This document shows, in pieces, positions 6,215 through 23,004 of a stretch of DNA of 24,145 nt (positions are counted from its first letter, which is position 1; every line of letters begins with the position of its first letter). This stretch comes from a virus, in the IMG/VR virus record IMGVR_UViG_3300005915_000111, positions 1 to 24,145 of that record; one strand, written 5' to 3'. The notes under the pieces were generated by a model, which worked only from the letters and a program-made list of their open reading frames with translations, searched no databases and was not told the origin of the DNA. The translations under genes were made by a program, and so were the position numbers.

Positions 6215-6217
6215 TTA

Positions 6218-7062: not shown

Positions 7063-7064
7063 TC

Positions 7065-7388: not shown

Positions 7389-7672
7389 TTTGGATCATAC
7401 TCCACATGGAAAATGTCAAGATTTGAATATTCAACCACGTCAAAATCAGATCCGCAAACATCAACAATATCCGACTTTGAAAATCCTTTACGTTTAAAAT
7501 CGATTGCATCGCCCTCGTAATGACACGATGCCCGATTATGATTTCCTTCCCCTTTTGAAGTTATAAAAAAATCACTTCCACGAAACTTATAGAAATCAAT
7601 CAACCGACCTTTGCACCGCCGCATCGATGGTGATAGCCGCCCGAGCACTCCTTGTTTAATCCATACCGTCAT
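7385..7672 (-). CDS. M15-like D,D-peptidase/endolysin-like protein
   Basis: I start this gene at ATG 7672 (95 residues) because GGGAG lies eight bases upstream; a TTG at 7687 would add five residues without a good site. The C-terminal half has FFITSKGEGNHNRASCHYEG followed by DAIDF, with His51 and Asp58 as metal ligands, and SNLDIFHVEYDPK with His89 and Glu91. This S.H..G.A.D ... HvEyDP pattern is that of M15/VanY-like peptidases, which cut peptidoglycan cross-links. It is short for the family and has no signal peptide. Function could be lysis or wall penetration from the virion. It overlaps the upstream connector end and the downstream adaptor start. Confidence 0.75.
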   Translation of the reverse strand: MTVWIKQGVLGRLSPSMRRCKGRLIDFYKFRGSDFFITSKGEGNHNRASCHYEGDAIDFKRKGFSKSDIVDVCGSDFDVVEYSNLDIFHVEYDPK

Positions 7673-7674
7673 TT

Positions 7675-8454
7675 TTAAAACTCCCAAAGCGTTTTGGATC
7701 TGAGCAAGTTGCCGATCGTATCCAGCTTATTGACAGACACGTTAAGCATGGTTACCTCGCGGATTGAATACATTTCCGTAATGGAAAGCAGGATTGCTTG
7801 TTTGATCGTAGCTGGCACCGCACGGCCTACACAGGTCCATGTAATGTCATTATCGACCACTGTGCCGCCAATGGTACGCGTCCATGTCGGTTCCGCCGTG
7901 TCGGACGTGCCAGCACCACCGGCCTGATACACAAAGCCGTTTCCGGTCGTCGGCACGATATAATCATCCTCGGAATAATCTGTTGAAACCACATACAAGC
8001 TGCCCTGAAAGTAGCCACAAACAAATTGCACCTCAATCGGATTAGTCGGATAAAGCGATGCCGTCGGAAAACTCTTGTTGTAAGCCAGCACAACGGCCCC
8101 GGGTTCATCGTATGTGTCAACATCGTACTCAGTATCCGCCCACTCGGTTTGATCTTCGTCAGTGTCCGTGTACTTGATATGAGACACCGATTGAAGCTGG
8201 CCAAACAGAATATAAAAGCCCCGGGGAAAGTATCGATTCGGATCATTCCCGGCCCAACTATTAAGATACAGATTCCAAGTTTGCGATACCAGCCGACGAA
8301 AGGTTGCGTTTTCCGCAAAATAAACCGCTGTTAAGATTTGAGCATTCAACAAGGTATCGTCGGTGGTAAAAGACGGGTTAAGATTCAAGTGCGCCTTTGT
8401 TTCCACCAGCGATACCGGGTTTAATGCCGGTCCTGTTACGAGTTGAGTTTTCAT
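7675..8454 (-). CDS. Head-tail connector, phiE125 gp8/HK97 gp6-like, with inserted module
   Basis: The N-terminal MKTQLVTGPALNPVSLVETK, LVSQTWNLYLNSW, and GQLQSVSHIKYTD followed by EYDVDTYDEPGAVVLA are hallmarks of the phiE125 gp8 connector family, as is the C-terminal VPATIKQAILLSITEMYSIR. Between the strand VQFVCGY (about 142-148) and that helix (about 213) sits an extra segment of about 60 residues containing EPTWTRTIGGTVVDNDITWT (189-208) and CVG. This resembles the small W..G....d..v.W.c.g module found in many phage fibre and decoration proteins. Normal family members lack it here. At 259 residues the protein is longer than usual because of this insert. It would join portal to adaptor; the insert could be surface exposed on the neck. 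Confidence 0.85.
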   Translation of the reverse strand: MKTQLVTGPALNPVSLVETKAHLNLNPSFTTDDTLLNAQILTAVYFAENATFRRLVSQTWNLYLNSWAGNDPNRYFPRGFYILFGQLQSVSHIKYTDTDEDQTEWADTEYDVDTYDEPGAVVLAYNKSFPTASLYPTNPIEVQFVCGYFQGSLYVVSTDYSEDDYIVPTTGNGFVYQAGGAGTSDTAEPTWTRTIGGTVVDNDITWTCVGRAVPATIKQAILLSITEMYSIREVTMLNVSVNKLDTIGNLLRSKTLWEF

Positions 8455-8654
8455 TTTTTGCCTATTGCCAAATCTAAAAGCAGATCAAGTTTTTTTTCAA
8501 TACGCCCCTGGTCGGTTTCGTACCGGTTAATGGTTACATAATCATCGCGGAAGCACGCGACTGTGTTTGTATTCCAAAGCTGAAAAACACCGATCATCGC
8601 TATTAAAAGCCAAACTAAATATCCTTGAAAAGAATCTTTTGAAAACTTTGGCAT
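8451..8654 (-). CDS. Small single-TM protein with C-terminal coiled-coil-like tail (holin- or spanin-like, unassigned)
   Basis: In this 67-residue protein YLVWLLIAMIGVFQLWN (about residues 12-28) is a strong transmembrane segment. The rest is soluble and ends with an amphipathic helix (RIEKKLDLLLDLAIGKK). GGAGG precedes the ATG and the stop overlaps the connector start (ATGA). Such small membrane proteins may act in lysis or anchor virion-associated proteins, and the M15-like peptidase two genes on makes a lysis role conceivable. No family-defining motif is seen, so the function is open. Confidence 0.7.
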   Translation of the reverse strand: MPKFSKDSFQGYLVWLLIAMIGVFQLWNTNTVACFRDDYVTINRYETDQGRIEKKLDLLLDLAIGKK

Positions 8655-8667
8655 TATCGGCCTCCAC

Positions 8668-9771
8668 TTAATTCTGACTTACCAAACCCTCTTCCCAGGC
8701 TTGCAATACCAGCCGTTGGACTTCTGCGGCGGTTAGCGCCCGTTCGTATATCAGGTATAGGGCGATTTGGCCATTGAGATAACCGGCAGGAAGCGATGTA
8801 ACATTTAAACCCCCAATGGCGAGGGGAATGTGTGAATCAAAAAAAGATGCAGGAATAGCCCCCGTAGTTGTAGATGCCTCAACACTCCCATTATTATATA
8901 TAACGCAAGTAGTTCCATTATAGACAAATCCAATTTGATTAAATGACGCTTGCGCTCCGTTTGCATATATAACGGCATCTGTTTTTTCATATGTTGTGTT
9001 AACCCCGTCACCGCTTAGATAAATCCATACATGCCCATCGTCTTTTTTATAAAAAAGCATGGATCTAAAATCGCCCAGGCTATTATCCTGTATAGATGAG
9101 AAAGTCTGATCAACGCCTTGCCCATCGTCCGGTTTCACTCCAAGAAATATATGGCTCTGGTCACCAGCCAGATTCGTGGTTCCGATGATTTTATATACCA
9201 CATAAGATGCTGCCGTATCTGGTGATACCTGCGGAGTTGTTCTTCCTTTCCATCCCCGAGTCGTCAGAGCGTAGTCCGAATAAATATCAATATCGGTGCC
9301 ACCGTTATTTGATGCGCCCATGTATCCGTATGAAATCCCGTTGTTCGTAGTAATAACTATTCGATATGATGCCAACCCGGCCGCCGGCGCTGTTTCCCAA
9401 TCGCTAAAATCTTGCCCGGCATCACGAAACTCAGCCGCTCCAGCATCAGCCACAAATGTCATTGCCCCTTGATTGATATCGTAAGTTTTTTGAGCAATAA
9501 AATCAGAACCATCCAAATCCCAAACAGGATTGGAAGCATTCATTGACGAAGCAAAAGCGTATTGTTTTCCGACCGTATTCTGTTCGAAATCATTATCCTG
9601 TCTACTCCTATCCCGAATAGACGAAAGTGTTGAATGTAAAGGAAGTCCTGCAAATACTAACCCTGTCGGATTTACTCCTGCCCTACTGCTAAAGGCAACT
9701 CCGTCCCATGCATGAGCAACGGGAGCGAAAAGAAAAAGGCAAGTTAATAAATATACAAAAAGTTTTTTCAT
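8668..9771 (-). CDS. Secreted LamG/concanavalin-like lectin-fold protein
   Basis: The first 21 residues are a classical Sec signal (MKKLFVYLLTCLFLFAPVAHA, cleavage after AHA). The mature 346 residues have a central strand-rich region (GDQSHIFLGVKPDDGQG, MLFYKKDDGHVWIYLSGDG) and a C-terminal LamG-like jelly roll with IGFVYNGTTCVIYNNGS, then LNGQIALYLIYERALTAAEV, the closing phrase typical of LamG_3/concanavalin domains in phage and exported proteins. The role is likely carbohydrate or surface binding. The start follows the 334-residue gene by a TAATG overlap. It is the last of five consecutive signal-bearing genes. A signal peptide is unusual for a virion protein; it could instead be displayed by the host cell. 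Confidence 0.85.
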   Translation of the reverse strand: MKKLFVYLLTCLFLFAPVAHAWDGVAFSSRAGVNPTGLVFAGLPLHSTLSSIRDRSRQDNDFEQNTVGKQYAFASSMNASNPVWDLDGSDFIAQKTYDINQGAMTFVADAGAAEFRDAGQDFSDWETAPAAGLASYRIVITTNNGISYGYMGASNNGGTDIDIYSDYALTTRGWKGRTTPQVSPDTAASYVVYKIIGTTNLAGDQSHIFLGVKPDDGQGVDQTFSSIQDNSLGDFRSMLFYKKDDGHVWIYLSGDGVNTTYEKTDAVIYANGAQASFNQIGFVYNGTTCVIYNNGSVEASTTTGAIPASFFDSHIPLAIGGLNVTSLPAGYLNGQIALYLIYERALTAAEVQRLVLQAWEEGLVSQN

Positions 9772-10775
9772 TACTTCACCGTAACCGCTATGGTGATTCC
9801 GATTGCATCGCCCGGATCCGCAAGGGATGTTAACTTTGCATGGATTTCGCCGGTTTCGTCGGCATCGCTAAGTGGAAAGCTGTCAACGATTCTAACTTCT
9901 CGGCATATTCCTTCATCAACCGCATGACCGTTTACCAGGGTTGTCACAACCACTGTATCGGCATCTGTGATCGTCACAAGGTTGACCGATTCAGCCGTAC
10001 CACCCATGAGCCTAATCCAATCGTAAACAAGCAACCCAGCAGAGCTGTCCAAATCCCCGCCCGTTCCAGCCGCCGACCAAGTTCCGGTTTTAACTTCCGT
10101 ATAAGTCAAATTGAAATAAATCGGTTTTCCGATCCGGTCCTGGCCGAGCTTTGTATCCTTTGTGAAAAATTCAAGCCGAAAGTTGACGTTAATATCCGCG
10201 CCCGGATCATTTACGCCATCAGCAAGATAGATCCGGATCAAGGTTGACTGAACATCATCCCCAGGCAGCCCGGTTATATCCAGCGCCACGGTTTCCGCAG
10301 CGTCAATATCCGGAAAATCATCAGTGATAGTCGTGCCGATATCGGTCAGACGCGCCACGAGGCCGGCAGGAGTGACAACCCTATCAGTTGCCGTACCGGT
10401 TATTGTCTCCGCGCCTGTGGCCAACTCAGATACACCCTCTGCCGATGTCAAGGCCGTTGCAACCCCTATCGTCGCCTTTGCGCCATTCGCCCCAGGAAAA
10501 ACATCAGATGCCGCACCAGTTACCGGAGCCGTGACTGCCAGATCGCCAAGCATTGTAATTCCGAGCGTTAACGTATCAGCATCCGCCCCAGGAAAGATAT
10601 CATTAACGCCCCCGGTGATAGGTGTGGTCGTCACCACATCGCCAAGTTTAAGGCCCGACCCGGTCCCACCGTCTACAACGGCAAGCGGTAAACTCGGTTG
10701 AGGGATTGAGCGCAAGCCGAGCGTAGACAACCCGATCAACACAAAGGTAAATATTGCGATTTTTAATGATTTCAT
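9771..10775 (-). CDS. Signal-bearing protein with tail-fibre-like repeats
   Basis: This 334-residue protein starts with a hydrophobic signal or anchor (IAIFTFVLIGLSTLGL, about 6-21; no clear AxA site). Residues about 35-130 hold a VDGGTG segment, two related units of about 32 residues (LGDVVTTTPITGGVNDIFPG and LGDLAVTAPVTGAASDVFPG, each followed by a short Gly/Thr strand), then ELATGAETITGTATDRVVTP and AGLVARL, a phrase very common in phage tail fibre repeats. The C-terminal 180 residues look like a folded beta domain (DVQSTLIRIYLADG, GKPIYFNLTYTEVKTGTW, LVYDWIRLMGG). Ribosome binding site AGGGG. Fibre-type sequence with an export signal is unusual. Function is unknown; surface fibre or adhesion is inferred. 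Confidence 0.8.
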   Translation of the reverse strand: MKSLKIAIFTFVLIGLSTLGLRSIPQPSLPLAVVDGGTGSGLKLGDVVTTTPITGGVNDIFPGADADTLTLGITMLGDLAVTAPVTGAASDVFPGANGAKATIGVATALTSAEGVSELATGAETITGTATDRVVTPAGLVARLTDIGTTITDDFPDIDAAETVALDITGLPGDDVQSTLIRIYLADGVNDPGADINVNFRLEFFTKDTKLGQDRIGKPIYFNLTYTEVKTGTWSAAGTGGDLDSSAGLLVYDWIRLMGGTAESVNLVTITDADTVVVTTLVNGHAVDEGICREVRIVDSFPLSDADETGEIHAKLTSLADPGDAIGITIAVTVK

Positions 10776-10783
10776 ATCAGCCC

Positions 10784-11296
10784 CTATTTTTCAAACGTCA
10801 TTACGATGGTCCAGTCGGCGCTGGCCGTGACCTGATCGTCAACGTCCAGGGTAAGCGCACCGGTAACCAGCGGATAATAAAGCTGATGCGTTCCGGCCCT
10901 GGTCAAGTACATATCCGGCATACACTTTTTAGCCAGTGACTCATGGAGCAAGTTAAGCCCCTGGTATGCCGTTGAATTATCGATACTGCCGAGCAAATCG
11001 ACCCCTGAAGCGTCGTAAACCAGCACGCTTCCCGCGTCCGGTTGCGTTCCGCCGACGGTCCTGAATGCTTTAACTTCTGTGAGATACCAACCCGTAATAA
11101 ACAGGGTATTCGCCGCATTCGTTGCGGTATTCGGTATCGTTCCGGTTTCGCCGGCAGTTCCACCGATGCAAATAAATGTTATGATCCGCGAATGGGTATC
11201 GATAATCAATGGAGTTTGCGTCACCGTCCCGACCGCTCCAAATGCCATCACCGGCAAAAGAAAGCTGATTAATATTGCAATTAATGATTTTTTCAT
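10784..11296 (-). CDS. Signal-bearing 170-residue beta protein, function unknown
   Basis: MKKSLIAILISFLLPVMAFG is a clear signal sequence with likely cleavage after FG or GA. The mature part is strand-rich, with VGTVTQTPLIIDTHSRIITF, a GTAGETGTIP turn, a VLVYDASGVDLLG segment (yDasG.DlLG is a common phrase in phage proteins beside capsid genes) and a C-terminal ADWTIVMTFEK strand. Good site AGGAG precedes the next gene upstream and a normal spacing separates it from the 435-residue gene. A decoration or fibre-base role is possible for the mature domain, but the signal argues for envelope passage. No enzyme motif is seen. Confidence 0.78.
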   Translation of the reverse strand: MKKSLIAILISFLLPVMAFGAVGTVTQTPLIIDTHSRIITFICIGGTAGETGTIPNTATNAANTLFITGWYLTEVKAFRTVGGTQPDAGSVLVYDASGVDLLGSIDNSTAYQGLNLLHESLAKKCMPDMYLTRAGTHQLYYPLVTGALTLDVDDQVTASADWTIVMTFEK

Positions 11297-11299
11297 TGT

Positions 11300-12607
11300 T
11301 TAAATCTCCTGAATTTTGAGCCAAATATAGACAATGTCTCCACCATCCGACTCTGCCATGACCCTTGCGCTTATCCGCGTTCCCGGATTAAAGATAAAAT
11401 CAGTATCAGCAGTCGCGGCAGTTGCTTGCCCCTTTGTGGACCCGACGATCATCTGATTAAAATAAGTTGACCCGCTATCCGTACTAAACCCGATTAAATG
11501 CTCCTGAGTTACCGCCAATTTAAAAGCATACCCAACGATCTTAAACGGTTTTGTCGCAGTCACAGCCGCCCGTAGTTCCGTATCGGTCCCAAATTCGTCC
11601 GCGTTTGCATGACCAGCAACAGGAGTTCCGTCAACATCTTCCGGGTATGCAGCTATTTTAAATTCGCCGCTAATATTATTATAATGATGATCACTTTGGC
11701 CGACGGTCGCATCATCAACATTTGCGGTATTATGATGAAATGAAATACTCTCAAAATGCTGTTCATTCCCGGCGTCAAGATCAAGCCCGGTTGCGCTATC
11801 ACCAATATCGACATTGTAAAAATAATTTGAATCGGAATCGGTTTCTGTTATCTGAATACCGGTTTTGCATTCATGTATTTCAACGTGGCTAAATTCCGAC
11901 CGCGCAACATGATCAAGCTTGATCGCGGTCAAGCGGGTTGTGCCATCCCCAAGAAAATGAGTATCCGAAACCTGGCCATGTTTTAACAGACTGGCCCCGT
12001 CGATATGCAGGGCGGTCCTCGTAATCGCACCGTCAAGATCCTCACCCACGAATTGACAATGGCTGACTCGAAAAGCGCCTTTGGTAATGATCACGCCGTT
12101 ATTATCGGTCCCGAGATTAAAGTTTAAATCGATTAAAGAAACGTATCCGGTAAACTTTAGAATCGAATCGCCAGTATCGTTTTTAATTTTCACCCACGTT
12201 CGATGTGAGCCCTTGAGAATATAATTACCGGTCCATGTCGGATCGCTGGCCGTGGCTATATCGTAATAATCCGACCCGGTATTGATCCCGATTAAAATCA
12301 GTGTGAGTTCATTTGCATCCGTACTGGCCGCATCAAGGGCCCCTTGAATGGTTGTGTAAGCTGTGGTCCATGATTTGCCATCCGTGTTTGTTCCGTTCGG
12401 GGAAACATACAGCGTGTCGGTAACCGCCCGACCACTCGCCGCAGCCCCGGCGTTTTCTTGAATGGCATGTAAACGATACGCAACGGAATCGGGTTCCCCG
12501 GCAAGTCCATCAGACTTAACCTGGTCAAGCCACCTGTCTGCATAGGCGTAGGTGACGATCAATAAGACCGCCACCAAAACGCCTATTATTTTAAGTTTAT
12601 ATTTCAT
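11300..12607 (-). CDS. Exported right-handed parallel beta-helix protein (435 residues)
   Basis: The signal sequence MKYKLKIIGVLVAVLLIVTY with cleavage after AYA (residue 23) precedes an N-terminal helix-rich linker (RWLDQVKSDGLAGEPDSVAY). From about residue 62, TLYVSPNGTNTDGKSWTTAY opens a right-handed parallel beta-helix like those of pectate lyases and phage tailspikes, with repeated short strands (ILKFTGYVSLIDLNFNLG, VSDTHFLGD, FSHVEIHECKTGIQITET). A C-terminal domain (about 340-435) ends IVYIWLKIQEI. It is homologous in opening phrase and fold to the 1013-residue neighbour. No acidic active-site cluster is obvious, so it may bind rather than cut polysaccharide. It starts three bases after the upstream stop. 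Confidence 0.82.
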   Translation of the reverse strand: MKYKLKIIGVLVAVLLIVTYAYADRWLDQVKSDGLAGEPDSVAYRLHAIQENAGAAASGRAVTDTLYVSPNGTNTDGKSWTTAYTTIQGALDAASTDANELTLILIGINTGSDYYDIATASDPTWTGNYILKGSHRTWVKIKNDTGDSILKFTGYVSLIDLNFNLGTDNNGVIITKGAFRVSHCQFVGEDLDGAITRTALHIDGASLLKHGQVSDTHFLGDGTTRLTAIKLDHVARSEFSHVEIHECKTGIQITETDSDSNYFYNVDIGDSATGLDLDAGNEQHFESISFHHNTANVDDATVGQSDHHYNNISGEFKIAAYPEDVDGTPVAGHANADEFGTDTELRAAVTATKPFKIVGYAFKLAVTQEHLIGFSTDSGSTYFNQMIVGSTKGQATAATADTDFIFNPGTRISARVMAESDGGDIVYIWLKIQEI

Positions 12608-12610
12608 GGT

Positions 12611-15600
12611 TTATATCGGAATAACACTTGCGCCTTCGGTCAAGGCTCTCCAATACACGTGAATAACTACCGTTCCATCTGCCAAGTTTGTAGCACTTTG
12701 GGTAATTGCAATGTTATCATCATCAAGGATGTAGGTTGTCGGAGATGCCGCACTTTTCGCCGTGGTTGCCGATGTCCAGGTATCGCCACTTGTCATCGGA
12801 GCATCGCCGCCAGTAGCCGCAATCAACAACGTCGTGCTGTCAGCGGTCCCTATGGCAATGGTATCACTATGGCTTGTCAGCGTTTCAGTAACAGTTCCGT
12901 AAACCTTAACCTCGACAGATCCGGTCACGGTAAACAAATTGTCCGTATTCGCAGCGCCGTCAAGCTCAAACGTGGCTTCCGCATAAAACCATTTGCCATC
13001 CTCAAGCCATGCATTGTCGGGAGCGTCCGTTTTATCGCTTTCGACGATCTTATTACCAAAGGCAAGCAATGACCCCGGGTCGAAGATTGCACCCGGCACC
13101 GTCCCTGTTAGAATGTTGTCGTATGCATACCCGGTCGCCGCACCGCTTAACTGTACCGCATGGTCAGCAGCCTGAACATTCCGGATAAGATTGCTTCTGA
13201 GAATAAAGTTGGTCAGCGCCTTATCCGAATTGATAGCTGCGTCGGAATAATCACCCCATATATCATTGTTCTCTACCAGCAAGCGATTGACGATCCCGGT
13301 TGTACCGTCGATGAAGGAAGTGGCACCACTCTGCGTATTGTAAACCGAACAGTTTCGCACCGTCACCATATCCGCACCGGAAGCCAAGAGGATGCCGATG
13401 GTATGAACAAAGTTCCCGGCACCGGTATCTGTAAACTCGATTCCGTCAATTACCGCATAATCACCGCCGGCAAGAATCGAAATCGCGTTATCAGTCGCCG
13501 CTGTGGTATTGTAAAGCCGAAGATTTTGAATCGTCACCCCGGCAACCGAAATATCAATCGATGAGCTTGCATGATTAAAGGTCAACGTCGGCATTTGCGA
13601 GCCAGTCCCGAGCCCGATAACCGTTACGCCGATAATATTGGCGGTAATGGCCGCTGATACTGTTTCAGCATGCGCAGGAGCGACGAAAACAACATCGCCC
13701 TTGCTGGCCGTCGCATCAGCAATGCCGGCAGCAAGAGTGGCCTCTGCCAGCGCCCAGGTTGACCCATCGTCACCACCGGCACCGGTTACCGAATCGACAT
13801 ACCAGACATTTCCAACGGATTTGCCAGATGCCCGCATTCCGGATAGGATTTCTTCCGACATTCTTTCCAGTTGTGCAAAGTAGGAAAAAACATTGTCATC
13901 TTTAACCTTTCCACCATCACCGGAAAACAGATTTGCGTTCGCATCTGTACTGTTAAAGGTTGTATAGAGATTTCCACCGGATCCGTCATCTTCCCAACCG
14001 TTCGCACCCGCCGCGTCGACCATCTGCATTACGGTCGTAATTGCATCGATCCGTTCCTGAATTTTCGCCGCGTTTCGATCCGGAGCCACGGTCGTATCAG
14101 CCCCATTTTGGCCCAAGGCGTCCACAAGGGATACATTCGAAGCCAAAGCCGTTCCGCCAACAAAATCACCATCGCCAGACGCAATATATTGACTTATGCG
14201 ATATGCAAGCGAGTTGGTAACCGGAGTCGCCAACGCTTTTTGATATATAGAAACCAGTTCATCCCTGACAAACAAAACCTTGTCATTTTCGGCAAGGGTC
14301 GTAACAGCGCCATGCGTAACGGCGCCGGTCGTTGTGTTAAAGGCTGAAATGTCAACCACGTCACCCTCGGGAGCCGCATTTCCGCCGTTAGCGTCCCATA
14401 TAACGATCATTGTCCAACCGTTTACAAAGTAATTCGTACCCAAACCGATCAAAGCGGAATAGCTTGTATGAGTCGTGTCGGTTGCGGTCGTTACCGCAGC
14501 AACGTAGCTCATACCGGAAGGCACTGAGGCAAGAATCGCGTCCAGGTCAATTTGGTCAAGAATCCATTGGTCGTACATGGACACGTCGCCCATTTCGGAA
14601 TCAGTCCCAATTTTGCCATGAATGCTATCGGTGGTCGCATCGTCTATTGCACCGATACTGCCAGCGCCGGCAGTTGACATGACAACCGGAATGGCAACCG
14701 TATCCGCCGTAGTGTCATCATCCCATAACACGTTGCTCATGGTCATGCTGCCCGGATCAACAGCAGTTCCCTGTGCATTTGTCCGCACCAGAACATCTAT
14801 AATCTGACCCGTTGCGGTCCCTGTGACAAATTCAAGCGCATGCTGATCATTGGTCAAGTTGGTATACGTTCCGCCCTGAATAAGCCATTCCAGATCCGTA
14901 TCGTTTGACCAAACACACGCCACCCCAAACTCACCATAGATGTAATTGTCAATGAGTTGGATATTCGTGTTTACACCGTTCCCGGCCTCTAAAAAATGAG
15001 AACCGCCGGTCGCGTCCGCGTTATAAAAAGTGCAGTTCTTAACGGTCATCCCGGATACCAACGCTTCAAGATCTATCGCGTCGATAAACTCCCAGGAACT
15101 CGTTGTCGGTTCCGGAAATATACAGTCCTCCAGTGTAAATCCAGTACCAGCAGCCTCAACCGCAATACCGATCTCGATCGCATGCACCCCGGCAATGAAC
15201 TGGATATTCTTGACCGTAACATTAGCCGCACCGATTGCAAAGGTCGTATCGGTATCGGAAAACGTAAACGACGGCCGATTTGCGCCAACGCCCAGGCCCT
15301 CAACCCGCAATCCGGCTTTATCGATATCCACCAGATTTGCAGCGGATCCGCTTTCCGCATGGCCCGCCGCAACATAAATTACGTCACCGTTGCTGGCCGT
15401 GGTCAAGCCGATTACATAGTCAAGGGTTGCCGTAGGGCTTAACGGGTTGCGCCCGTACCCGGCGCCATCGGTTCCGGTCCCTGAATCAACATACCAAATA
15501 TCACCGGTCGTTTTTGACGTATCGATTACGCCGTAAATGCCGCCCGGTTGCTTTTTCGTAAACAACGGCGACCACTGACCCGCAGCGAGTGCCATGGGCG

Positions 15601-15652
15601 CTGTCAGCAAAATCATAATCGCTATGAGTGACAGAAATTTGAGCTTTTTCAT
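12611..15652 (-). CDS. Large exported protein with two parallel beta-helix domains (1013 residues)
   Basis: The signal peptide MKKLKFLSLIAIMILLTAPM is followed by ALA and then AGQ. There are two homologous beta-helix domains: the first opens at about residue 51 (IWYVDSGTGTDGAGYGRNPL, then NGDVIYVAAGHAESGSA, LRVEGLGVGANRPSFTFSD), and the second at about 615 (VWYVDSVTGAGGDDGSTWAL, then GDVVFVAPAHAETVSAAI, VTVIGLGTGSQMPTLTFNH). Between them is a mixed region (about 360-610) containing YFVNGWTMIVIWDANGG and helices (RNAAKIQERIDAITTV). The C-terminal part (about 880-1013) is a beta-sandwich-like domain. Similar WyVDs.tG / GDvi.VApgHaE helices are common in uncultured phage genomes, but signal peptides on them are notable. 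Tailspike-like binding is inferred; I see no proven catalytic site. Confidence 0.85.
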   Translation of the reverse strand: MKKLKFLSLIAIMILLTAPMALAAGQWSPLFTKKQPGGIYGVIDTSKTTGDIWYVDSGTGTDGAGYGRNPLSPTATLDYVIGLTTASNGDVIYVAAGHAESGSAANLVDIDKAGLRVEGLGVGANRPSFTFSDTDTTFAIGAANVTVKNIQFIAGVHAIEIGIAVEAAGTGFTLEDCIFPEPTTSSWEFIDAIDLEALVSGMTVKNCTFYNADATGGSHFLEAGNGVNTNIQLIDNYIYGEFGVACVWSNDTDLEWLIQGGTYTNLTNDQHALEFVTGTATGQIIDVLVRTNAQGTAVDPGSMTMSNVLWDDDTTADTVAIPVVMSTAGAGSIGAIDDATTDSIHGKIGTDSEMGDVSMYDQWILDQIDLDAILASVPSGMSYVAAVTTATDTTHTSYSALIGLGTNYFVNGWTMIVIWDANGGNAAPEGDVVDISAFNTTTGAVTHGAVTTLAENDKVLFVRDELVSIYQKALATPVTNSLAYRISQYIASGDGDFVGGTALASNVSLVDALGQNGADTTVAPDRNAAKIQERIDAITTVMQMVDAAGANGWEDDGSGGNLYTTFNSTDANANLFSGDGGKVKDDNVFSYFAQLERMSEEILSGMRASGKSVGNVWYVDSVTGAGGDDGSTWALAEATLAAGIADATASKGDVVFVAPAHAETVSAAITANIIGVTVIGLGTGSQMPTLTFNHASSSIDISVAGVTIQNLRLYNTTAATDNAISILAGGDYAVIDGIEFTDTGAGNFVHTIGILLASGADMVTVRNCSVYNTQSGATSFIDGTTGIVNRLLVENNDIWGDYSDAAINSDKALTNFILRSNLIRNVQAADHAVQLSGAATGYAYDNILTGTVPGAIFDPGSLLAFGNKIVESDKTDAPDNAWLEDGKWFYAEATFELDGAANTDNLFTVTGSVEVKVYGTVTETLTSHSDTIAIGTADSTTLLIAATGGDAPMTSGDTWTSATTAKSAASPTTYILDDDNIAITQSATNLADGTVVIHVYWRALTEGASVIPI

Positions 15653-15654
15653 TT

Positions 15655-15867
15655 TTATTTCTCCCCCTTGGCCGCTTTTCGCGCCTTCCGTTCGGCTTTT
15701 TCAGCCTTGGCAAGCAACCGGTCAGTTTCCACCTTGCGAGCCGCTAAAAACTCCCGGTCCGGCTTGGCAAGTCCGTTGACCATCCATAAATAGGCACGGT
15801 CATCAGACACACCGACAGTCGTTCCGGCACAGTGCCCGCTAATTTGTTTTAAAAGTGTAACTTGCAT
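15655..15867 (-). CDS. Small conserved protein next to capsid genes (SH3-like start, charged tail)
   Basis: This 70-residue protein begins MQVTLLKQISGHCAGTTVGV, a compact beta segment of the kind V.ll....G..aG....v found in small phage proteins beside the capsid gene, followed by an A..Lm..G.A-type motif (AYLWMVNGLAKPDREFLA) and a strongly charged Lys/Ala/Glu helix (ETDRLLAKAEKAERKARKAA) that may be coiled coil. Ribosome binding site GGAGG. Its last codons provide the GGAG site for the large beta-helix gene. Role unknown; head fibre or assembly helper is a guess. Confidence 0.65.
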   Translation of the reverse strand: MQVTLLKQISGHCAGTTVGVSDDRAYLWMVNGLAKPDREFLAARKVETDRLLAKAEKAERKARKAAKGEK

Positions 15868-15906: not shown

Positions 15907-16401
15907 TTAATCGGTTATGAGCGACGGCGGATTATTAGACTGATAAAGCATATCGGGGTAATACATCACCTCGATATAGTTTCCAGCATTCCCGCCGCTT
16001 GATCGGAACTGAAAACAATCGTACCCGTCAGAAAATTTTGCTGGATCAAACCCCATCACCCAAATCTGATCAAGTTGCGTCGCCGCAGCGATTGTAAAGG
16101 TGTATGCGTCAGTTGCCCTGGTTAATCCGTCGATAGTTGCCGTGTCAATGTTGTACCAGATTGGACACGTCTCCGTAATTGCCGCTGTGGTTCCGCCAGC
16201 TACATCAGTGCTTTCGTTCCAGGTTATAATCAAGTCATTTGATGCGGACCCAGCACCGTAAAAATGAAATACAGCCCACAGCATCGATACGTTTTTCAAT
16301 GAAATAATTGCACAGGTATTGTCCATGGCATCGGCGGATCCCGGTTCGTGCGCCTGTACCGGGGGAAATCGTTCCGGAAAAGTTAAATCGTTCATTTTCA
16401 T
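15907..16401 (-). CDS. Probable capsid decoration/head-stabilising protein
   Basis: This 164-residue protein is encoded directly downstream of the capsid gene, where decoration proteins usually sit. It is beta-rich: AIISLKNVSMLWAVFHFYGA, NDLIITWNESTDVAGGT, CPIWYNIDTATIDGLTR, YTFTIAAATQLDQIWVMGFD and GNYIEVMYYPDMLY. The scheme (isLkn...v.f..g....i.v.qs.d.ag...k.....p.wy..d......t......t........i.ve.d...l) is shared by many proteins beside HK97-type capsid genes. No signal peptide, in contrast to the genes that follow. Ribosome binding site AGGAG. It would bind the capsid exterior. Confidence 0.6.
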   Translation of the reverse strand: MKMNDLTFPERFPPVQAHEPGSADAMDNTCAIISLKNVSMLWAVFHFYGAGSASNDLIITWNESTDVAGGTTAAITETCPIWYNIDTATIDGLTRATDAYTFTIAAATQLDQIWVMGFDPAKFSDGYDCFQFRSSGGNAGNYIEVMYYPDMLYQSNNPPSLITD

Positions 16402-16445: not shown

Positions 16446-17861
16446 TTACTCCCGAACAGCGACTCTTACAAACGGGGAAACCGTTGAACCGGCCACCGAG
16501 TTTTTAAACGGCGTGATCGCTGAAACGTCCACCGGACGCCCATCAAAGTATGAGGTGAACCGGAGCGCAATCTGGCCGTACTCAAATTTTACATGGATGG
16601 AAACGGCCTGGAGAACATCGCCCTTGTCGGCCACGATATATTTTGAAAAATCGGTCAGCCAGATATCGCCGGCGGTTCCGCAAACTTCCGCTTGTTCGAT
16701 TGGAATTGCCGGATAACCCCAAATAGCGCCGATACCATCGGACTTCCGGGGAGGCGTAAACAGTTTGGAAAGCTCGCCGCCGGACCCCACATCATAGGTC
16801 ATCTTCATGAGCTGGCTAAAGCAGTTCCGGTTATAAAAGAATGCCGGCTTTCCGCCGCTGTTAGGCTGGAACCGTTCGATCATCTTGAGAATGTTCTCTG
16901 TAACGATGGTCAAAGCTTGCTGACCGGTTTCTTTGGGAATACTGACCTTACAGTCGGCATTCATGATGCCCTGGGCTGTACCGGCGCCTGTACCCTCTAT
17001 AACCTGATCCTGTTTCTTCCATGCAAACTCGTTTTCAAACAACCGCCGCACTTCCTGGCCGATGATCGGAGCGTTCATGTTGATTTCTTCGGAAAAATAA
17101 ATCAAGCCGGTCAGCTTTTTGGGCTCGATCCGCATTTTCTGAAATTTGGTCATGCTGGAATCGTATTCTCCGAGTTCCGCCTCTGTGTAAACACGGATGC
17201 CACCCTGCCGACTATCATCCGCCCGGCTGGTTTCGTCAATGTCAATGAGTTCGGCCCACGCTTCGCCGGCGCCCAGGGTAATCCGTCGGCATCTTGATAA
17301 AACTTCGGAGTTGTTAAATCCACGGTCCATGATTTCGACCGCCGTTGATCCGGTAAGGAACATACCGCCCTCGGAAGCAATGCCCTGCACCTGGCCGGTT
17401 CCGGCTGCCCGAAAATCCGGCTGATCTTTTTCCAGAAGGGTAATTTCCCGAGTTCGGTTCTCGTTGTACCGTTTTTCCGCCGCCTTCCTTACCTCATCGC
17501 TCTGGTTGCGCTCACGGTTTGTCATCATTACAATGGTATCACGGATTTGAGCGGTAAGCGCCCGAGTTTCATCCCCTCGGTAAATCGGGTTGTCCGGCAC
17601 GTCCATATTGCTCGGAGGCGGATCGCCATCGCCACCTGGATCACCGGCATCGGGTGGATCGTTGATTGACCGGTTTGCAAAGGCGTCAAGCTCATTTGCA
17701 CGTTCTTCGGTTTCGATCTGAACTTTCAAGCCCTCACATTCAGAAATGACGGTTTCGAGATCTGTTCTTTTTTCGTCGGTCATTTCTTCCGGCTTAATCG
17801 CTCGCAGAGCCTTCATGCGCTCAATAGCTTTCTTAAGTTTTTCTCGCAATTCTTTTAACAT
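16446..17861 (-). CDS. Major capsid protein, HK97 fold
   Basis: This 471-residue protein has an N-terminal delta/scaffold domain (about 1-150) with a coiled-coil start (LREKLKKAIERMKALRAI) and a Pro/Gly/Asp-rich linker (DPPDAGDPGGDGDPPPS). The capsid body begins near GTGQVQGIASEGGMFLTGS and contains KKLTGLIYFSEEINMNAPII, the E-loop-like and spine helix region (FAWKKQDQVIEGTGAGTAQG), NSGGKPAFFYNRNCFSQLM, and GAIWGYPAIPIEQAEV followed by WLTDFSKYIVADKG, all standard in HK97-type capsid proteins. The prohead protease upstream probably removes the delta domain. Ribosome binding site GAGGTG is five bases before the ATG. Confidence 0.95.
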   Translation of the reverse strand: MLKELREKLKKAIERMKALRAIKPEEMTDEKRTDLETVISECEGLKVQIETEERANELDAFANRSINDPPDAGDPGGDGDPPPSNMDVPDNPIYRGDETRALTAQIRDTIVMMTNRERNQSDEVRKAAEKRYNENRTREITLLEKDQPDFRAAGTGQVQGIASEGGMFLTGSTAVEIMDRGFNNSEVLSRCRRITLGAGEAWAELIDIDETSRADDSRQGGIRVYTEAELGEYDSSMTKFQKMRIEPKKLTGLIYFSEEINMNAPIIGQEVRRLFENEFAWKKQDQVIEGTGAGTAQGIMNADCKVSIPKETGQQALTIVTENILKMIERFQPNSGGKPAFFYNRNCFSQLMKMTYDVGSGGELSKLFTPPRKSDGIGAIWGYPAIPIEQAEVCGTAGDIWLTDFSKYIVADKGDVLQAVSIHVKFEYGQIALRFTSYFDGRPVDVSAITPFKNSVAGSTVSPFVRVAVRE

Positions 17862-17862
17862 T

Positions 17863-18486
17863 TTACACCTCGTATGATTTTGAAATTGTTTGAAGGTTTC
17901 TGATTAGCCGGAGGTTCGCCTCCGCTGTTTTATCTTCGTCGCGGTTCGCCGCGTTGAATACATCCTTTGACCGCTTTGCAACGGTCGTGTCCGGGTATGC
18001 TGGGAACGTAACCGGGCTAACGTCGAATATTTCTTTAACTTCGATGATAGTCCGGATTTCCGGTTCACCTTCGTTTGCCGATGATTCCCACTTGTCCTGC
18101 TTCACGGTAAACGCAAAGGATTGTTCCTTTACATCGCCCCGGTCGATGGACAACATAAGATCACGCGCCCATTGCGTATCCGGTGGCGTATTTTCCATGT
18201 AAAGACCCCTGGCACGTTCCCGCAATTCCAGCGTGCCGGCAGATTCACGGCCCAGGACAAAGTTCGAATCGTGATTCCACAATGCCCGGGCATCAGAAGT
18301 TTTCAGCGCATTCTTAAACGCACCCGGCTTAATCTTTTCCCGAAACCAGCCAAGATCATCAGATAGCGAATTGAACACCGCCGCGTACCCGGTAATCTTC
18401 GGGGGATTATCGCCGTCACGACTTACCCGCAGTTCAGATGCCGCCAGCATCCGTACTTCTCGGATTTCTTCCTTATCTTTTTTCAT
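17863..18486 (-). CDS. HK97-family prohead protease (peptidase S78/U35)
   Basis: This 207-residue protein has the catalytic His in ALWNHD (His72), the Ser in KEQSFAF (Ser123) and the acidic site region EIFDVSPVTFPAYPDTTV (about 152-169), the three conserved blocks of the HK97 prohead protease family. The N-terminal part has ITGYAAVFNSLSDDLG and FREKIKPGAF, also characteristic. It cuts the scaffold domain from the capsid protein inside the prohead. Position between portal and capsid genes is standard. The start overlaps the end of a 40-codon upstream frame, and the stop is just before the capsid ATG. Confidence 0.95.
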   Translation of the reverse strand: MKKDKEEIREVRMLAASELRVSRDGDNPPKITGYAAVFNSLSDDLGWFREKIKPGAFKNALKTSDARALWNHDSNFVLGRESAGTLELRERARGLYMENTPPDTQWARDLMLSIDRGDVKEQSFAFTVKQDKWESSANEGEPEIRTIIEVKEIFDVSPVTFPAYPDTTVAKRSKDVFNAANRDEDKTAEANLRLIRNLQTISKSYEV

Positions 18487-18596: not shown

Positions 18597-20597
18597 TCAC
18601 CCCGCAGTTATAAAACAGTCGCAACCGCCATGCAGTTGCGGATATTTCGTTAGCCCATAAATCGGCATCGGATCTTGGCCCTCGACTTCTATTTCGGTTC
18701 CGGCTTCGGCAAACGCTTCGCCCCGTTTAACCGCACGACCGGCAAGGGATTGACAGTATGGGCACGTTTCCGGTCCCCGAATAGCCCACACGGAACGGAA
18801 GCCGCCCGAAAAGAAAGTTGAGGCCGCAACCATACTGGCCATCGAAACCGTTTGCCGATTCGCGACCTTGTCCGCTCGCTTTTCATGCCATTCATCAACC
18901 CGCGTTTCAAGCTCTGTTAATTCGTCACCGATAAGCGCCACAAGCTGCCCGCGCGAGGATCCAACATACTGAGCCGTGAATCCGTCAATATATTCCCTGA
19001 TTTCGTCCTCAAGTTCCGGGGTCAACCCAACATCAGCGCCGATTTCAGCAGCTGCAGCTTCTTGGATCGATTCCGCAAAGCTCCGCATGGTCGGGCCGAT
19101 GGTGTCGTTAATATATGTCGGCATATCCCGATAAAAATTGTCCAGCCAAGTTTCCATGTTCCGTTTAGCCCGATCTTTGGACTGTTTATCCACTTCTTTT
19201 TTAACGGCAATGGATTCCCGATTGATTATCTTTTGTGCAGCGTCACGGAAAAGCGGATAAAACCGTTTTGATACCCGATCCCGCCCGCGTACAGACTTTA
19301 AGGCCGTTGCTCTAAACTCAAGCGCCCGAATACTTGCCTGTACGGGAACGGGAGGAGGTTCGCGTGGCTCACCCACCGGCACAAAGTTTAATGGCACCAT
19401 ACCAACATCACCACCCTTGACCGGATTTTCATCATCACGGTCAAGCATTATATTTAACGGTTTGCCCATCTGCCAATATCGTTGATCGATTTCGGAACGT
19501 GACTTGGCATCCGGGCGGAGAAGCGCATCAAGATTGTATTTCCAAAACCAACCGGCCCGGCGTTTTTCTTCAGTCAATAATTGCATATTGAACGATTGTT
19601 CATCGCGCACGGTCCAGCCCGATAGGCAAGAATCAACATAGGCTTTATTCTGTTGCTCAGTGTTGTTGTAGTTCGCGCCTTTGGTAAAAATCCCGATCTT
19701 TGCAGGAGGCACGCGATTAATTCCGCAAATATCTTCACGCGTCATCTGCATCATTTCGAGCAGTTGTGCATCGGCAAATTTAATATCGAATGGAACAAAT
19801 TTACCGTCATCTTCCATAACCATCGGGCGCCGTGAGCCGGTTGAACCCGTGCCCATGAACCGCTTATCGACAGCTTTGGTAAATGTCTTTTTATTGTTTC
19901 CCAGTGACCCCGGAAACGTAAAAAATCCAGCCGGTGAAAATCCTTGCTTGTAATATATGGCCTCAAATTCTTTTTGACTCAGGCCAATGCCGATAGAATC
20001 CCGCGCAAAGTTTTTAATGACCGATTCACCGGACAATCCGTCGAAACCAAACCCGGGAACATGCAGAATATCTTTTGCCGGTCGATCTTTTATTTCACCT
20101 TGGATTTTATACACAAGCGGTCCGCGTTTCCGGGGGTTTCCGTATCTATCTTTTTCGGTCCAGCCTTTGCCGCGCTTAACCGTTACCAGTTCCGGCTTAA
20201 TTGGCCACAACGCTTTTATACCCATGCCGGATCGCTCAATAAATGCAAAATAGTTACCATCTGTCATTATTTGGCCCTGGTTGGTTTCCCGCCATGTAAA
20301 CGAGTTCATGTCCGGATTTGGCTGATCTTTTAGGAGATAATAAAGATCCTCATCGGTTGCATCTTCGGACCCACCGCCTTTTTTTGGCCGTTTAAGTTTC
20401 AGCGGTAATTTTGCTTTATCCGATGCAACCAACATGATACAGGAAGCCCACGCCGCAAGTCTCATGGCCGTTTGTTGATTTACAGATTTGCCGGATTCGG
20501 AGACACTGCCACCGAGTCCGTACCAAAAATCGTCAGTGACGGTTAAACTGCCACCGCCTATGACTTGGCTTCTGAAACCTTTCGAGAAGATACCCAC
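18597..20597 (-). CDS. Portal protein fused to Mu gpF/SPP1 gp7-like head morphogenesis domain
   Basis: Residues 1 to about 430 match HK97-type portals: SVNQQTAMRLAAWASCIMLV, TWRETNQGQIMTDGNYFAFI, HVPGFGFDGLSGESVIKNFA, and DICGINRVPPAKIGIFTKGA. After a linker (VPVQASIRALEFRATALKSV) the C-terminal 220 residues are helical and end with VWAIRGPETCPYCQSLAGRA and HGGCDCFITAG, the Cys-rich closing motif of Mu gpF/SPP1 gp7 minor head proteins. In most phages these are two genes. The portal is the DNA channel; the gpF-like part helps head assembly. The start is a GTG at 20597 inside the end of the two-TM gene. The overall length of 666 fits a fusion with no frame break. Confidence 0.92.
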   Translation of the reverse strand: MGIFSKGFRSQVIGGGSLTVTDDFWYGLGGSVSESGKSVNQQTAMRLAAWASCIMLVASDKAKLPLKLKRPKKGGGSEDATDEDLYYLLKDQPNPDMNSFTWRETNQGQIMTDGNYFAFIERSGMGIKALWPIKPELVTVKRGKGWTEKDRYGNPRKRGPLVYKIQGEIKDRPAKDILHVPGFGFDGLSGESVIKNFARDSIGIGLSQKEFEAIYYKQGFSPAGFFTFPGSLGNNKKTFTKAVDKRFMGTGSTGSRRPMVMEDDGKFVPFDIKFADAQLLEMMQMTREDICGINRVPPAKIGIFTKGANYNNTEQQNKAYVDSCLSGWTVRDEQSFNMQLLTEEKRRAGWFWKYNLDALLRPDAKSRSEIDQRYWQMGKPLNIMLDRDDENPVKGGDVGMVPLNFVPVGEPREPPPVPVQASIRALEFRATALKSVRGRDRVSKRFYPLFRDAAQKIINRESIAVKKEVDKQSKDRAKRNMETWLDNFYRDMPTYINDTIGPTMRSFAESIQEAAAAEIGADVGLTPELEDEIREYIDGFTAQYVGSSRGQLVALIGDELTELETRVDEWHEKRADKVANRQTVSMASMVAASTFFSGGFRSVWAIRGPETCPYCQSLAGRAVKRGEAFAEAGTEIEVEGQDPMPIYGLTKYPQLHGGCDCFITAG

Positions 20598-20956: not shown

Positions 20957-21175
20957 TTAACGAGCCATTGCGCCAATTATTACAAACTCTGCCCTTCTGC
21001 GCTCAACGTCCATATCTTTTTTTATCTGTTCTTTGTTTGGTCCAAACAGGCTACAATTGCAACAAATAAAACCAGCGTGGCCGAATGTTTGCGGATCGAT
21101 GAACTCACTACCAGATAAAACACCCGGTATCGATTCATCGATTGGATCACCACATTTTACACAATATTCTGTCAT
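20957..21175 (-). CDS. Small zinc-ribbon protein after terminase
   Basis: This 72-residue protein has MTEYCVKCGDPIDESIPG at the start (Cys5, Cys8) and GFICCNCSLFGPN (about residues 35-47), giving a CX2C ... CX2C zinc ribbon, followed by a charged helix (KEQIKKDMDVERRRAEFVII). It starts at the stop of the large terminase gene (ATGA overlap) and is the last gene before the terminator. Its link to terminase suggests a packaging accessory or a transcription-type zinc protein. No family is recognised with confidence. Confidence 0.7.
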   Translation of the reverse strand: MTEYCVKCGDPIDESIPGVLSGSEFIDPQTFGHAGFICCNCSLFGPNKEQIKKDMDVERRRAEFVIIGAMAR

Positions 21176-23004
21176 ATCAAACTCCCATCATTCCCTTTAG
21201 GTTTAATATTAGCCCGCATTAATCGATCCAGCGAAAGCAGGATGCCTATGATGCCGTCGATCCGGCCCTGACTGGTGGACTTGTCCGGTTTCGTCTTTCC
21301 TGCCGGCCCTTCGGTTACTGACACGTTATCAGCCATGTGTCGCAATATCGGATTACCGCCGTGGTTCATATGGTTTTCAAGTAAACGCCGCTCAATTTCC
21401 AACATCGGCCCGGCCATCGACTCATAACCCATGCCGCACGGAAAAACCTTCGGAGCCTTTTTGTTCCCGCCGAGTTCTTCATCAAGCTTTTGCGAAAACT
21501 CGTAACCCTGAAATAGCCGATCTACCGAAATCGAATCAATATCAAAAACTTTCGCATCGGCCACAATTTGAGCCCGGACAAAAGCATAATCAATTGCATC
21601 GCCCGGAGTCGTCGTTAAATAGCCCTGCTTCTCCCAGGCTTGATACTGATCCGCATACTTATTGCTCTTGTCATACAGCCGCACTGAGGGGCACCAGACA
21701 CGTATCAGGATGTCAACCAGATCCGGCACAACCAGATCCGGAAATAGCATCACCCACACCGTTAAATCCGATACCGCCGATAAATCGATACCGCCCGTAC
21801 ACCGCCGGCCTTTTAATTTCGATTCGTCAATTTCCCGGGTATAATTCCGGTCCCATAATTCAAGATCGATCCACCGGCTAAACTGTTGGGTCCAGATATT
21901 CATCCGTTTGGTCAAGAAATTATTTTGTGCGCTGACAATCTCCTTTGCAATCTTGCATTTATCCCGCACATCCTCGATTTTTGTCATGTATCCGGTCGGG
22001 CGCCCATTTGTGTCAAGACTGTTCGGCAAGCCCGGCTCATTTGTTCCACAAAGCCCCGGCATAGGTTTGACCCACTTCGATTCGTCGGTCCAATCATCCT
22101 CAACCGTGCCTTTTTTGCCGGCTTTGGATTCTTTAACGCTGACCAGCTCCGCCCAGTCTTTTTTAACGTCCAGTGTGTAGATTATTCCAAAAAAAGAATC
22201 ATCCTGAAATGGAACCGGTCCAGGATCAACGACGCCTTTTAAAATCTTAGTCAAATATTCGCGCCGACTATAGCAGATTCCGGACTGATCAAACCCTGAC
22301 GTTGTAATTATCAAAATCAACGGCTGCGAACGTGAACCAATCGAATCGACCGCCAGATCATAAACTTTCGGCGTAGGGCTCGCGTGCAATTCGTCCAGGG
22401 CGCAAAAGTGAGTATCTAAACCGTCAAGGGATTTCGAATCGGAAGCCAGCGCCTCGCACTTCGACCATGTGGATTCGATGGAAAGATTATAGACTTTGTT
22501 CGAGTTTGGATATTTAATCAGCGGAGCAAATATCGATGGCCGTGTCAGATTTTTAATGTTTTCCCAAACAATAGCCGCCTGATCTTGCTTTACGGCTGCC
22601 GTGTAGCATTCGGCGCCATCCTCACCATCAGCAACGAAAAAATAAGCGCCCAGGCCACCGGCAAACGTAGACTTCGCACCCTTCCGACCCATTTCAACGT
22701 ATGCGGTTCTGAAACGACGCGTATCGTCCGCACGCTTCCACCCCATAATCACCGATACGATAAACTGATAATGCGGCGCCAGCACGAACTCTTTGCCTTT
22801 GTAGTCCCGCCCCTTCCAAAGCCTTAAATGGGAAAAGAAATCAAGTGCATGGTCTGCCGCGTCATAATCAAAATATAGCCCGCGCTCATGGCCGTGTTTC
22901 AGATCATCAAGTTGCCTTTGACATGCAAGCTTGACCCATTTACAGGCAAGGATATTTCCGGCCAGAACATCCTTTGTGTATTTGGTTGATACGTGGTCAG
23001 CCAT
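21172..23004 (-). CDS. terL: Terminase large subunit
   Basis: This 610-residue ATPase-nuclease packages phage DNA. Walker A-like GRKGAKST is at about 107-114, Walker B CALDELHASP at 201-210 with the Asp-Glu pair, and the coupling motif LILIITTSGFDQSG at 229-242. The nuclease domain has GGIDLSAVSDLTVWVMLF (about 404-421; first metal-binding Asp), DIDSISVDRLFQGYEFSQKL, and GRIDGIIGILLSLDRLM near the C-terminus with the last Asp. This is the Terminase_1/HK97-like family. The small subunit gene lies two genes upstream. The start ATG has no clear site of its own but overlaps a short hydrophobic frame (22997-23050) that does, so coupling is likely. Confidence 0.96.
   Translation of the reverse strand: MADHVSTKYTKDVLAGNILACKWVKLACQRQLDDLKHGHERGLYFDYDAADHALDFFSHLRLWKGRDYKGKEFVLAPHYQFIVSVIMGWKRADDTRRFRTAYVEMGRKGAKSTFAGGLGAYFFVADGEDGAECYTAAVKQDQAAIVWENIKNLTRPSIFAPLIKYPNSNKVYNLSIESTWSKCEALASDSKSLDGLDTHFCALDELHASPTPKVYDLAVDSIGSRSQPLILIITTSGFDQSGICYSRREYLTKILKGVVDPGPVPFQDDSFFGIIYTLDVKKDWAELVSVKESKAGKKGTVEDDWTDESKWVKPMPGLCGTNEPGLPNSLDTNGRPTGYMTKIEDVRDKCKIAKEIVSAQNNFLTKRMNIWTQQFSRWIDLELWDRNYTREIDESKLKGRRCTGGIDLSAVSDLTVWVMLFPDLVVPDLVDILIRVWCPSVRLYDKSNKYADQYQAWEKQGYLTTTPGDAIDYAFVRAQIVADAKVFDIDSISVDRLFQGYEFSQKLDEELGGNKKAPKVFPCGMGYESMAGPMLEIERRLLENHMNHGGNPILRHMADNVSVTEGPAGKTKPDKSTSQGRIDGIIGILLSLDRLMRANIKPKGNDGSLI

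Follow-up and report, generated by a model that had tools for sequence, protein, structure and literature searches.

This study concerns five tandem genes, referred to here as the cassette, that occupy positions 8668-15652 of the IMG/VR virus record IMGVR_UViG_3300005915_000111 and whose products are predicted to begin with export signals. The record was analysed over its full 24,145 bases (the window), and all of its main genes are on the minus strand. The cassette lies between the gene for an HK97-type major capsid protein and that for a head-tail connector. In order of transcription the window begins with small genes, TerL, the portal gene, a gene for a protein of 207 amino acids (aa), the capsid gene, two small genes and the cassette, and 3' of the cassette come a 67-aa protein with one transmembrane (TM) segment, the gp6-like connector, the head closure protein Hc1, a neck protein, the tail terminator and the tape measure (Table 1). 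Judged by the last two genes, the phage is siphovirus-like.

An earlier reading of this DNA from its letters alone (the sequence-only reading) had described five open reading frames in tandem with tight spacing, and this was confirmed, with gaps of 2, 3, 3, 8, -1 and 13 nucleotides (nt) among the cassette genes and their neighbours. Promoter-like sites (17, against 15.0 in shuffled sequence) and terminator-like sites (11 against 12.5) were both at chance level. Because of the tight gaps and the chance level of promoter matches, the cassette is regarded as part of the late operon. An assignment to morons or lysogenic conversion genes was rejected on the gaps of at most 13 nt and on promoter- and terminator-like sites at the shuffled level.

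Table 1. Cassette genes, their predicted N-terminal signals and neighbouring genes of the window. A slash marks the predicted cleavage site.
Feature	Position	Strand	Remarks
Cassette gene 1, 1013 aa: predicted signal and two right-handed beta-helix domains	12611..15652	-	Pfam Beta_helix, E 7e-7
Gene 1 predicted signal	15584..15652	-	residues 1-23, ...APMALA/AGQ; N-terminus MKKLKFLSLIAIMILLTAPMALA/AGQ; low confidence and outside the fold in the AlphaFold2 model; pN/pS 0.38-0.46
Cassette gene 2, 435 aa with predicted signal	11300..12607	-	no family match; not in L013, L014
Gene 2 predicted signal	12539..12607	-	residues 1-23, ...TYAYA/DRW; N-terminus MKYKLKIIGVLVAVLLIVTYAYA/DRW
Cassette gene 3, 170 aa with predicted signal	10784..11296	-	no family match; most conserved cassette protein
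Gene 3 predicted signal	11237..11296	-	residues 1-20, ...VMAFG/AVG; N-terminus MKKSLIAILISFLLPVMAFG/AVG
Cassette gene 4, 334-aa fibre-like protein	9771..10775	-	weak fibre-repeat match, phrog_910, E 0.004
Gene 4 hydrophobic N-terminus	10713..10775	-	residues 1-21, MKSLKIAIFTFVLIGLSTLGLRSIPQPS; weak cleavage site
Cassette gene 5, 367 aa: predicted signal and C-terminal LamG/ConA-like domain	8668..9771	-	PF13385, E 2.2e-9
Gene 5 predicted signal	9709..9771	-	residues 1-21, ...PVAHA/WDG; N-terminus MKKLFVYLLTCLFLFAPVAHA/WDG
TerL	21172..23004	-	phrog_9
Portal	18597..20597	-	phrog_12
207-aa gene in the usual protease position	17863..18486	-	by position, no search assignment
HK97-type major capsid protein, upstream boundary, without signal	16446..17861	-	Phage_capsid, E 6e-29
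164-aa protein, without signal	15907..16401	-	similar-size gene usually between capsid and beta-helix gene in relatives
70-aa protein, without signal	15655..15867	-	stop 2 nt upstream of cassette gene 1
67-aa protein with one TM segment, between cassette and connector	8451..8654	-	TM prediction
gp6-like head-tail connector, downstream boundary, without signal	7675..8454	-	family match

Predicted signals and mature parts of the cassette proteins

Signals were called with a home-made rule for the n-, h- and c-regions, which is triggered by 0.76% of shuffled N-termini and by 1/114 and 5/176 of the genes upstream of the beta-helix gene in relatives. Since the rule rarely fires on either set, the cassette signals exceed chance. 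The sequence-only reading had proposed five signal peptides. Four are clear, each with a lysine-rich n-region, a 12-residue segment with a mean Kyte-Doolittle value of 2.7-3.6 and an AxA or AxG site. The fifth, in gene 4 (9771-10775), is only probable, with n- and h-regions in place and a poor cleavage site. Its homolog in a relative (L014, below) has a clear site, IVGA/FTP, though its own site is poor, and for this reason the gene 4 N-terminus is most safely worded as a putative signal or signal-anchor. The claim that the flanking capsid, portal and tail proteins lack signals held, as the rule found none among the other 24 genes of the window.

It is conceivable that hydrophobic N-termini of cytoplasmic proteins were misread as signals, since the calls come from a rule and not from a trained predictor, and since capsid 'signals' removed by a prohead protease have been suggested in Porphyromonas phages (PMC10367356). 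However, the low rate on shuffled N-termini speaks against such an artefact, as does the fact that the signals are precise additions missing from homologs (see below), conserved within clades and outside the modelled fold. This makes misreading very improbable, the least probable of the readings weighed here. The signals drift yet are under purifying selection, though less strictly than the mature parts, with ratios of nonsynonymous to synonymous polymorphism (pN/pS) of 0.29-0.57 in residues 1-23 versus 0.06-0.30 in residues 24-150 over six comparisons. Export of the cassette proteins to the periplasm is strongly predicted by their N-termini. Disulfide formation as the motive for export was unconvincing because the cassette proteins have few cysteines (1, 2, 2, 2 and 4).

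A different use of these N-termini would be as membrane tethers, with the appendages anchored in the inner membrane and heads docking there for the last assembly steps. The hydrophobic N-terminus of gene 4 with its poor cleavage site would suit this, and TM segments on neck parts would serve docking. However, most of the signals have clear AxA sites right before a conserved mature start, and a mature part in the cytoplasm would need an N-out topology, contrary to the positive-inside rule given n-regions rich in lysine and arginine. Tethering is thus considered quite improbable.

The mature parts had been described as beta-helix, LamG-like, fibre-repeat or other beta proteins. The beta-helix and LamG domains were borne out, the fibre repeat remained weak, and the genes with left ends at 11300 and 10784 matched no family. 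An AlphaFold2 model of residues 1-334 of gene 1 is a beta-helix, with a predicted local distance difference test (pLDDT) value of about 97 over most of residues 50-310, whereas three sequences tried for gene 3 gave no confident structure model (pLDDT 34). The gene 3 protein has 93% and 75% identity in relatives. A search of the phages collection with genes 3, 4 and 5 gave no match, and no relative of gene 3 was found in genome_contigs, where it was sought for host identification.

The cassette in related contigs

A search for the gene order in other phages found signal-bearing cassettes in relatives down to 45% capsid identity; the contigs compared are metagenomic and mostly incomplete. Contig 3300025669_000078 has a cassette with the same genes, and partial cassettes are present in 3300023435_000515 and 3300023257_000874. 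Because it is found in further contigs, the cassette is not an assembly accident, and an artefact of assembly or start-site choice was ruled out by the several contigs, the Shine-Dalgarno (SD) sequences and the coupled starts. Apart from near-identical contigs, the IMG/VR relatives include L013 (3300035698_013664), with a capsid protein 87% identical to that of the window, and L014 (3300032731_001083), at 45%. Every cassette protein in these two begins with a predicted signal despite changed gene content, gene 2 being gone from both and gene 5 from L013, which has another signal-bearing gene of 151 aa.

Within the cassette, N-terminal parts are kept while C-terminal parts are swapped, as in gene 4, whose residues 1-143 are 86% identical in L013 before a different protein follows. 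By comparison, this corresponds to the usual mosaic pattern of phage fibres. The resulting L013 fibre (7035-8996) consists of a predicted signal, the conserved N-terminus and a tail protein, phrog_5302 (E 2.4e-84). The phrog_5302 homolog in crAssphage cr55_1 is annotated as a tail protein and adjoins a reverse transcriptase, a position typical of diversified receptor-binding proteins.

Signal-bearing genes were also seen in other phages. In a different lineage (L064, 7001-13196) six such genes (324, 153, 540, 432, 121 and 100 aa) follow the capsid gene, possibly a cassette of independent origin. In L188 (2116-6367) signal-bearing genes for a 798-aa fibre-like protein and a 415-aa protein lie close by, with only a short fibre segment shared with gene 4. 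One cassette protein from each of these two contigs was searched against the phages collection and found no match.

A beta-helix family with and without signals

An alignment of the first beta-helix domain of gene 1, used as query, retrieved 79 viral loci with 69 distinct domains. Most of the 79 loci encode a single protein of ~308 aa that starts like MTNRTALFSRHQPGGVFTIED... and has no signal, and the gene often follows a ~158-aa gene and a major capsid gene. At 39 untagged loci (those without a signal), the nearest long upstream gene was the phrog_10 major capsid gene in 30/39; at tagged loci, matches of the upstream genes are spread over several major-capsid families (phrog_10, 1357, 3437, 212 and others). 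The window has the same arrangement, a major capsid gene (16446) and then the genes at 15907, 15655 and 12611, the last being the beta-helix gene.

A signal is present in 22/69 of the distinct members, 20 of them in one starred clade of the domain tree, with L064 and L077 apart. On this tree, which is a quick tree with L064 on a long branch, the signal needs 3 changes, versus a mean of 18.7 after shuffling, and 0/500 shuffles were as low. The signal replaces the first residues, such that untagged proteins read M..RTALFSRHQPGG... and tagged ones a signal peptide plus AGQWSPLFTKKQPGG. In the window, gene 1 has the signal followed by AGQWSPLFTKKQPGGIYGVID where untagged members read M..RTALFSRHQPGGVFTIED. 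On this alignment, gene 1 reads as a signal-tagged version of a beta-helix family that is normally untagged and placed after the capsid gene. A family that works without export would have its place in the particle rather than in the host envelope.

The best viral structural match of gene 1 was a 297-aa protein (BFVD A0A1B1IT72; Foldseek template modelling (TM) scores 0.76/0.85). Matches in the PDB were weak (TM scores about 0.2-0.45) and included the HK620 tailspike and pectate or rhamnogalacturonan lyases. Because these matches are weak and include both pectate-lyase-type enzymes and tailspikes, no enzymatic role can be read for gene 1. Beta-helix relatives in a Chitinivibrionales metagenome-assembled genome (MAG) and a TA06 MAG have no signal, and a Flavobacteriia match (L092) was not shown to be phage.

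Signals on the podovirus tail nozzle

The same kind of addition recurs on a core tail protein. One tagged beta-helix relative (L037) has a 739-aa gene that matches phrog_376 (E 9e-169), the 'tail tubular protein B' of pelagiphages. Its N-terminus is MKRRWEYLIPLFSILATVAVA/ATVRQNITLSSFNAGEMSPLM, with an SD sequence and an overlapping upstream stop, and for the cultured phrog_376 homologs among the matches listed the alignment begins no earlier than query residue 18-31, past the signal. The nozzle of L095 begins MRKLFNSLLLSLTILFSANLFA/AETVKVSGISNTFSSGELSPML; its 33-kb record has no second phrog_376 match.

In a first sample of nozzles, 2/57 distinct proteins were tagged (L037 and L095, both members of the query alignment), and in nearly all of the others the core is preceded by ~10 residues. 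When tagged N-termini served as the query of a second search, 22/104 distinct IMG/VR nozzles had a signal where a few leader residues usually stand (for example MKKILVFVLLLCSAVFA/GNPYRVFNNFNAGELSPL), a rate inflated by the signal-bearing query, though the existence of tagged nozzles is not. On a quick tree of the nozzles the signal needs 6 changes, at least 4 of them forced by starred branches, so it was gained or lost several times. Neighbouring genes upstream also had signals more often, 25/76 for tagged nozzles versus 12/249 for untagged ones (Fisher 1e-9, with kinship ignored and with longer flanks for L037 and L095 than for the rest). The corresponding effect in tagged beta-helix genomes, with signals on 14/68 downstream genes versus 9/161 in untagged ones (p 0.001), was weaker. 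In the phylum to which the Chitinivibrionales genome belongs, the two long matches to the nozzle have no signals. Among 396 genomes of the phylum of the Flavobacteriia MAG no nozzle match was found, but the controls were silent too, hence this is no evidence of absence.

The nozzle genes bear on whether one gene might give both a minor exported form and, from an internal start, a cytoplasmic form for the virion. An in-frame ATG lies within 14 codons of the core in 7/22 tagged nozzle genes, as such dual products would need. However, the other 15 have none, L095 lacks any in-frame start codon between signal and core, and in cassette gene 1 the first alternative start after the signal is a TTG inside a conserved motif and without an SD sequence. 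Dual products are thus very unlikely.

In one contig (L181, 3300032931_000509, 3407-7635, minus strand) the nozzle is split and duplicated, with pieces of 479 aa and 122 aa that both carry a signal and the nozzle N-terminus, and a third piece of 785 aa that holds the remainder behind its own signal-like start. The signal and the DNA upstream consist of simple repeats (ACACGGATTAACACTGATTAACACGG, CTCTGTGTCCTCTGTG, GATTTAAGATTTCAGATTT), as if the signals had been born from repeats.

Other genes of the window

The 67-aa protein at the end of the cassette (8451-8654) has a charged, perhaps coiled-coil C-terminus and is a possible candidate for a holin- or spanin-like lysis part. C-terminal residues 154-208 of the connector (7675-8454, minus strand) match the head-decoration family phrog_20658 (E 1e-7). 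A gene with a GTG start at 6218-7030 (minus strand), between the Hc1 and neck genes, encodes a protease-like protein (phrog_9683/11383) and is not in L013. Within the tail region, a glycosyltransferase-like gene is present at 2702-4051 (minus strand), and its L009 homolog is extended to 615 aa.

Discussion

The sequence-only reading held that an exported fibre-like block in a late head-tail operon is unexpected, and we agree. It offered three meanings without a choice (decoration of the host surface, periplasmic fibres that attach during lysis, and anchoring of assembly to the membrane). The comparative evidence favors exported parts of the particle and leaves decoration of the host surface as the main rival. 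The best explanation, to which we give close to an even chance, is that the cassette codes for outer virion parts, either decoration proteins or fibres of the head or neck, which would leave the cytoplasm through the host Sec system and signal peptidase I during late expression. The capsid, portal, connectors and packaged DNA would be assembled in the cytoplasm, while the cleaved appendages would fold in the periplasm, apart from the heads, and would mount on finished heads once a holin has opened the inner membrane or at lysis of the cell. The sequences themselves show the signals, their conservation, their exact fusion to the N-termini of proteins that lack a signal in other phages, and their reappearance on a core protein of the tail. 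We infer that export and cleavage do occur, that the mature proteins form part of the particle and that their mounting follows the opening of the membrane. Membership in the particle is favored because the beta-helix protein has untagged homologs at a virion locus, because the L013 fibre contains phrog_5302 and because the nozzle can be tagged.

The distribution of signals over virion parts is as would be predicted were export permissible only for components mounted at the end of assembly and from the outside. Signals are absent from capsid and portal proteins, from tail adaptors (phrog_394) and from the large proteins after the nozzle, which are of the ejection type by position, but can occur on nozzles, on beta-helix proteins and on proteins that resemble fibres. 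A portal 'signal' flagged in L012-L014 was discounted because it lies at an internal start and the true start is upstream.

Alternatively, the cassette proteins may be exported late without becoming part of the particle. They would then remain in the periplasm or at the outer surface of the dying host or its debris, and their beta-helix, LamG and lectin-like domains could mask receptors, bar superinfection, keep progeny from re-adsorbing to debris or stick cells to each other. An envelope protein requires just such a Sec signal with a cleavage site, glycan binding is common among LamG and beta-helix domains, and the nearest relative (L183) has another tail fibre. In addition, Porphyromonas phages encode exported proteins with a proposed role in outer-membrane modification (PMC10367356). 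However, homologs at this locus that lack the signal would have no way to the surface, a signal on the nozzle would make no sense for a surface mask, and the cassette has no promoter of its own. A surface role is thus regarded as less likely than a place in the particle, with a probability well below even.

Several points weigh against the view that the cassette proteins are exported virion parts. If the nozzle waited in the periplasm up to lysis, DNA-filled heads would have the adaptor as their only closure. The tail fibre of L183 (12610-13296) is an ordinary glycine-rich one without a signal, so the cassette need not be a receptor-binding device. A virion role of the beta-helix family is not established from any cultured phage, and only a single annotated record (MW202647.1) is among its matches. 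The signal prediction itself rests on the home-made rule, and the less biased of the nozzle samples is the one with few tagged members.

The cytoplasm is regarded as the site where virions of tailed phages reach completion. The recurrence of predicted signals on outer virion proteins of unrelated uncultivated phages suggests that in some phages the last steps of particle assembly take place outside it. These phages may form a split-assembly class, with heads and adaptors made in the cytoplasm, nozzle, fibres and decoration proteins exported to the periplasm and mounted only at the opening of the inner membrane, completion coupled to lysis, and Sec signals repeatedly added to ordinary virion genes. 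This broader proposal is made tentatively, at somewhat less than an even chance. Two-compartment assembly, if shown, would be categorically new. Signals on late-added outer parts would point either to such lysis-coupled assembly or to a large and so far overlooked class of exported surface proteins of phages, and both outcomes bear on the annotation of virion genes and on finding receptor-binding proteins. A further question is why periplasmic folding of these parts is favored in some hosts or phages.

In a literature search that mostly excluded subscription papers and wholly excluded preprints, no signal-tagged fibre cassette or nozzle was found. A precedent for a virion that matures extracellularly is Acidianus two-tailed virus, whose tails are finished after it has left the host (PMC12662068, PMC3466262); however, it is a spindle-shaped archaeal virus with unrelated proteins and has no Sec-exported cassette. 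Phages of Porphyromonas gingivalis (Nixviridae) resemble the cassette in having several genes with host-adapted signals, the 'Q-rule' proteins, but these are not described as a capsid-connector fibre cassette or as tagged virion proteins in the accessible part of that report (PMC10367356). Through the homology of phrog_5302 to the tail protein beside the reverse transcriptase in cr55_1, the L013 fibre, from an incomplete contig of 15.7 kb, may be compared with the tail proteins targeted by diversity-generating retroelements (DGRs) and with Bordetella Mtd-type adhesins. Phage DGR proteins have been reported to lack signal peptides (PMC6199706), whereas the L013 fibre has a predicted one. Tailspikes of the P22/HK620 type combine a beta-helix fold with a head-binding N-terminal domain and an endoglycosidase site; gene 1 has the fold class, with weak PDB matches, and neither a head-binding domain nor catalytic residues were identified in it. 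The lysogenic-conversion genes of the lambda lom/bor type, which are single host-envelope genes that encode proteins with signals among the late genes, differ from the window, where there is a multi-gene block in head-to-neck order with untagged homologs at a virion locus and no promoter of its own. The annotated protein UOF79913.1 (MW202647.1, with the annotation 'lacto-N-biosidase') has ~34% identity over the matched part and is encoded directly after the major capsid gene, but it starts at the conserved domain without a signal, whereas gene 1 has a predicted 23-residue signal and a doubled domain. Finally, PHROG 376, the tail nozzle of the P22 gp10 / T7 gp12 type, is the family in which other uncultivated phages have gained the same kind of signal; the phage of the window differs in being siphovirus-like, and in its relative G005 this family found no match.

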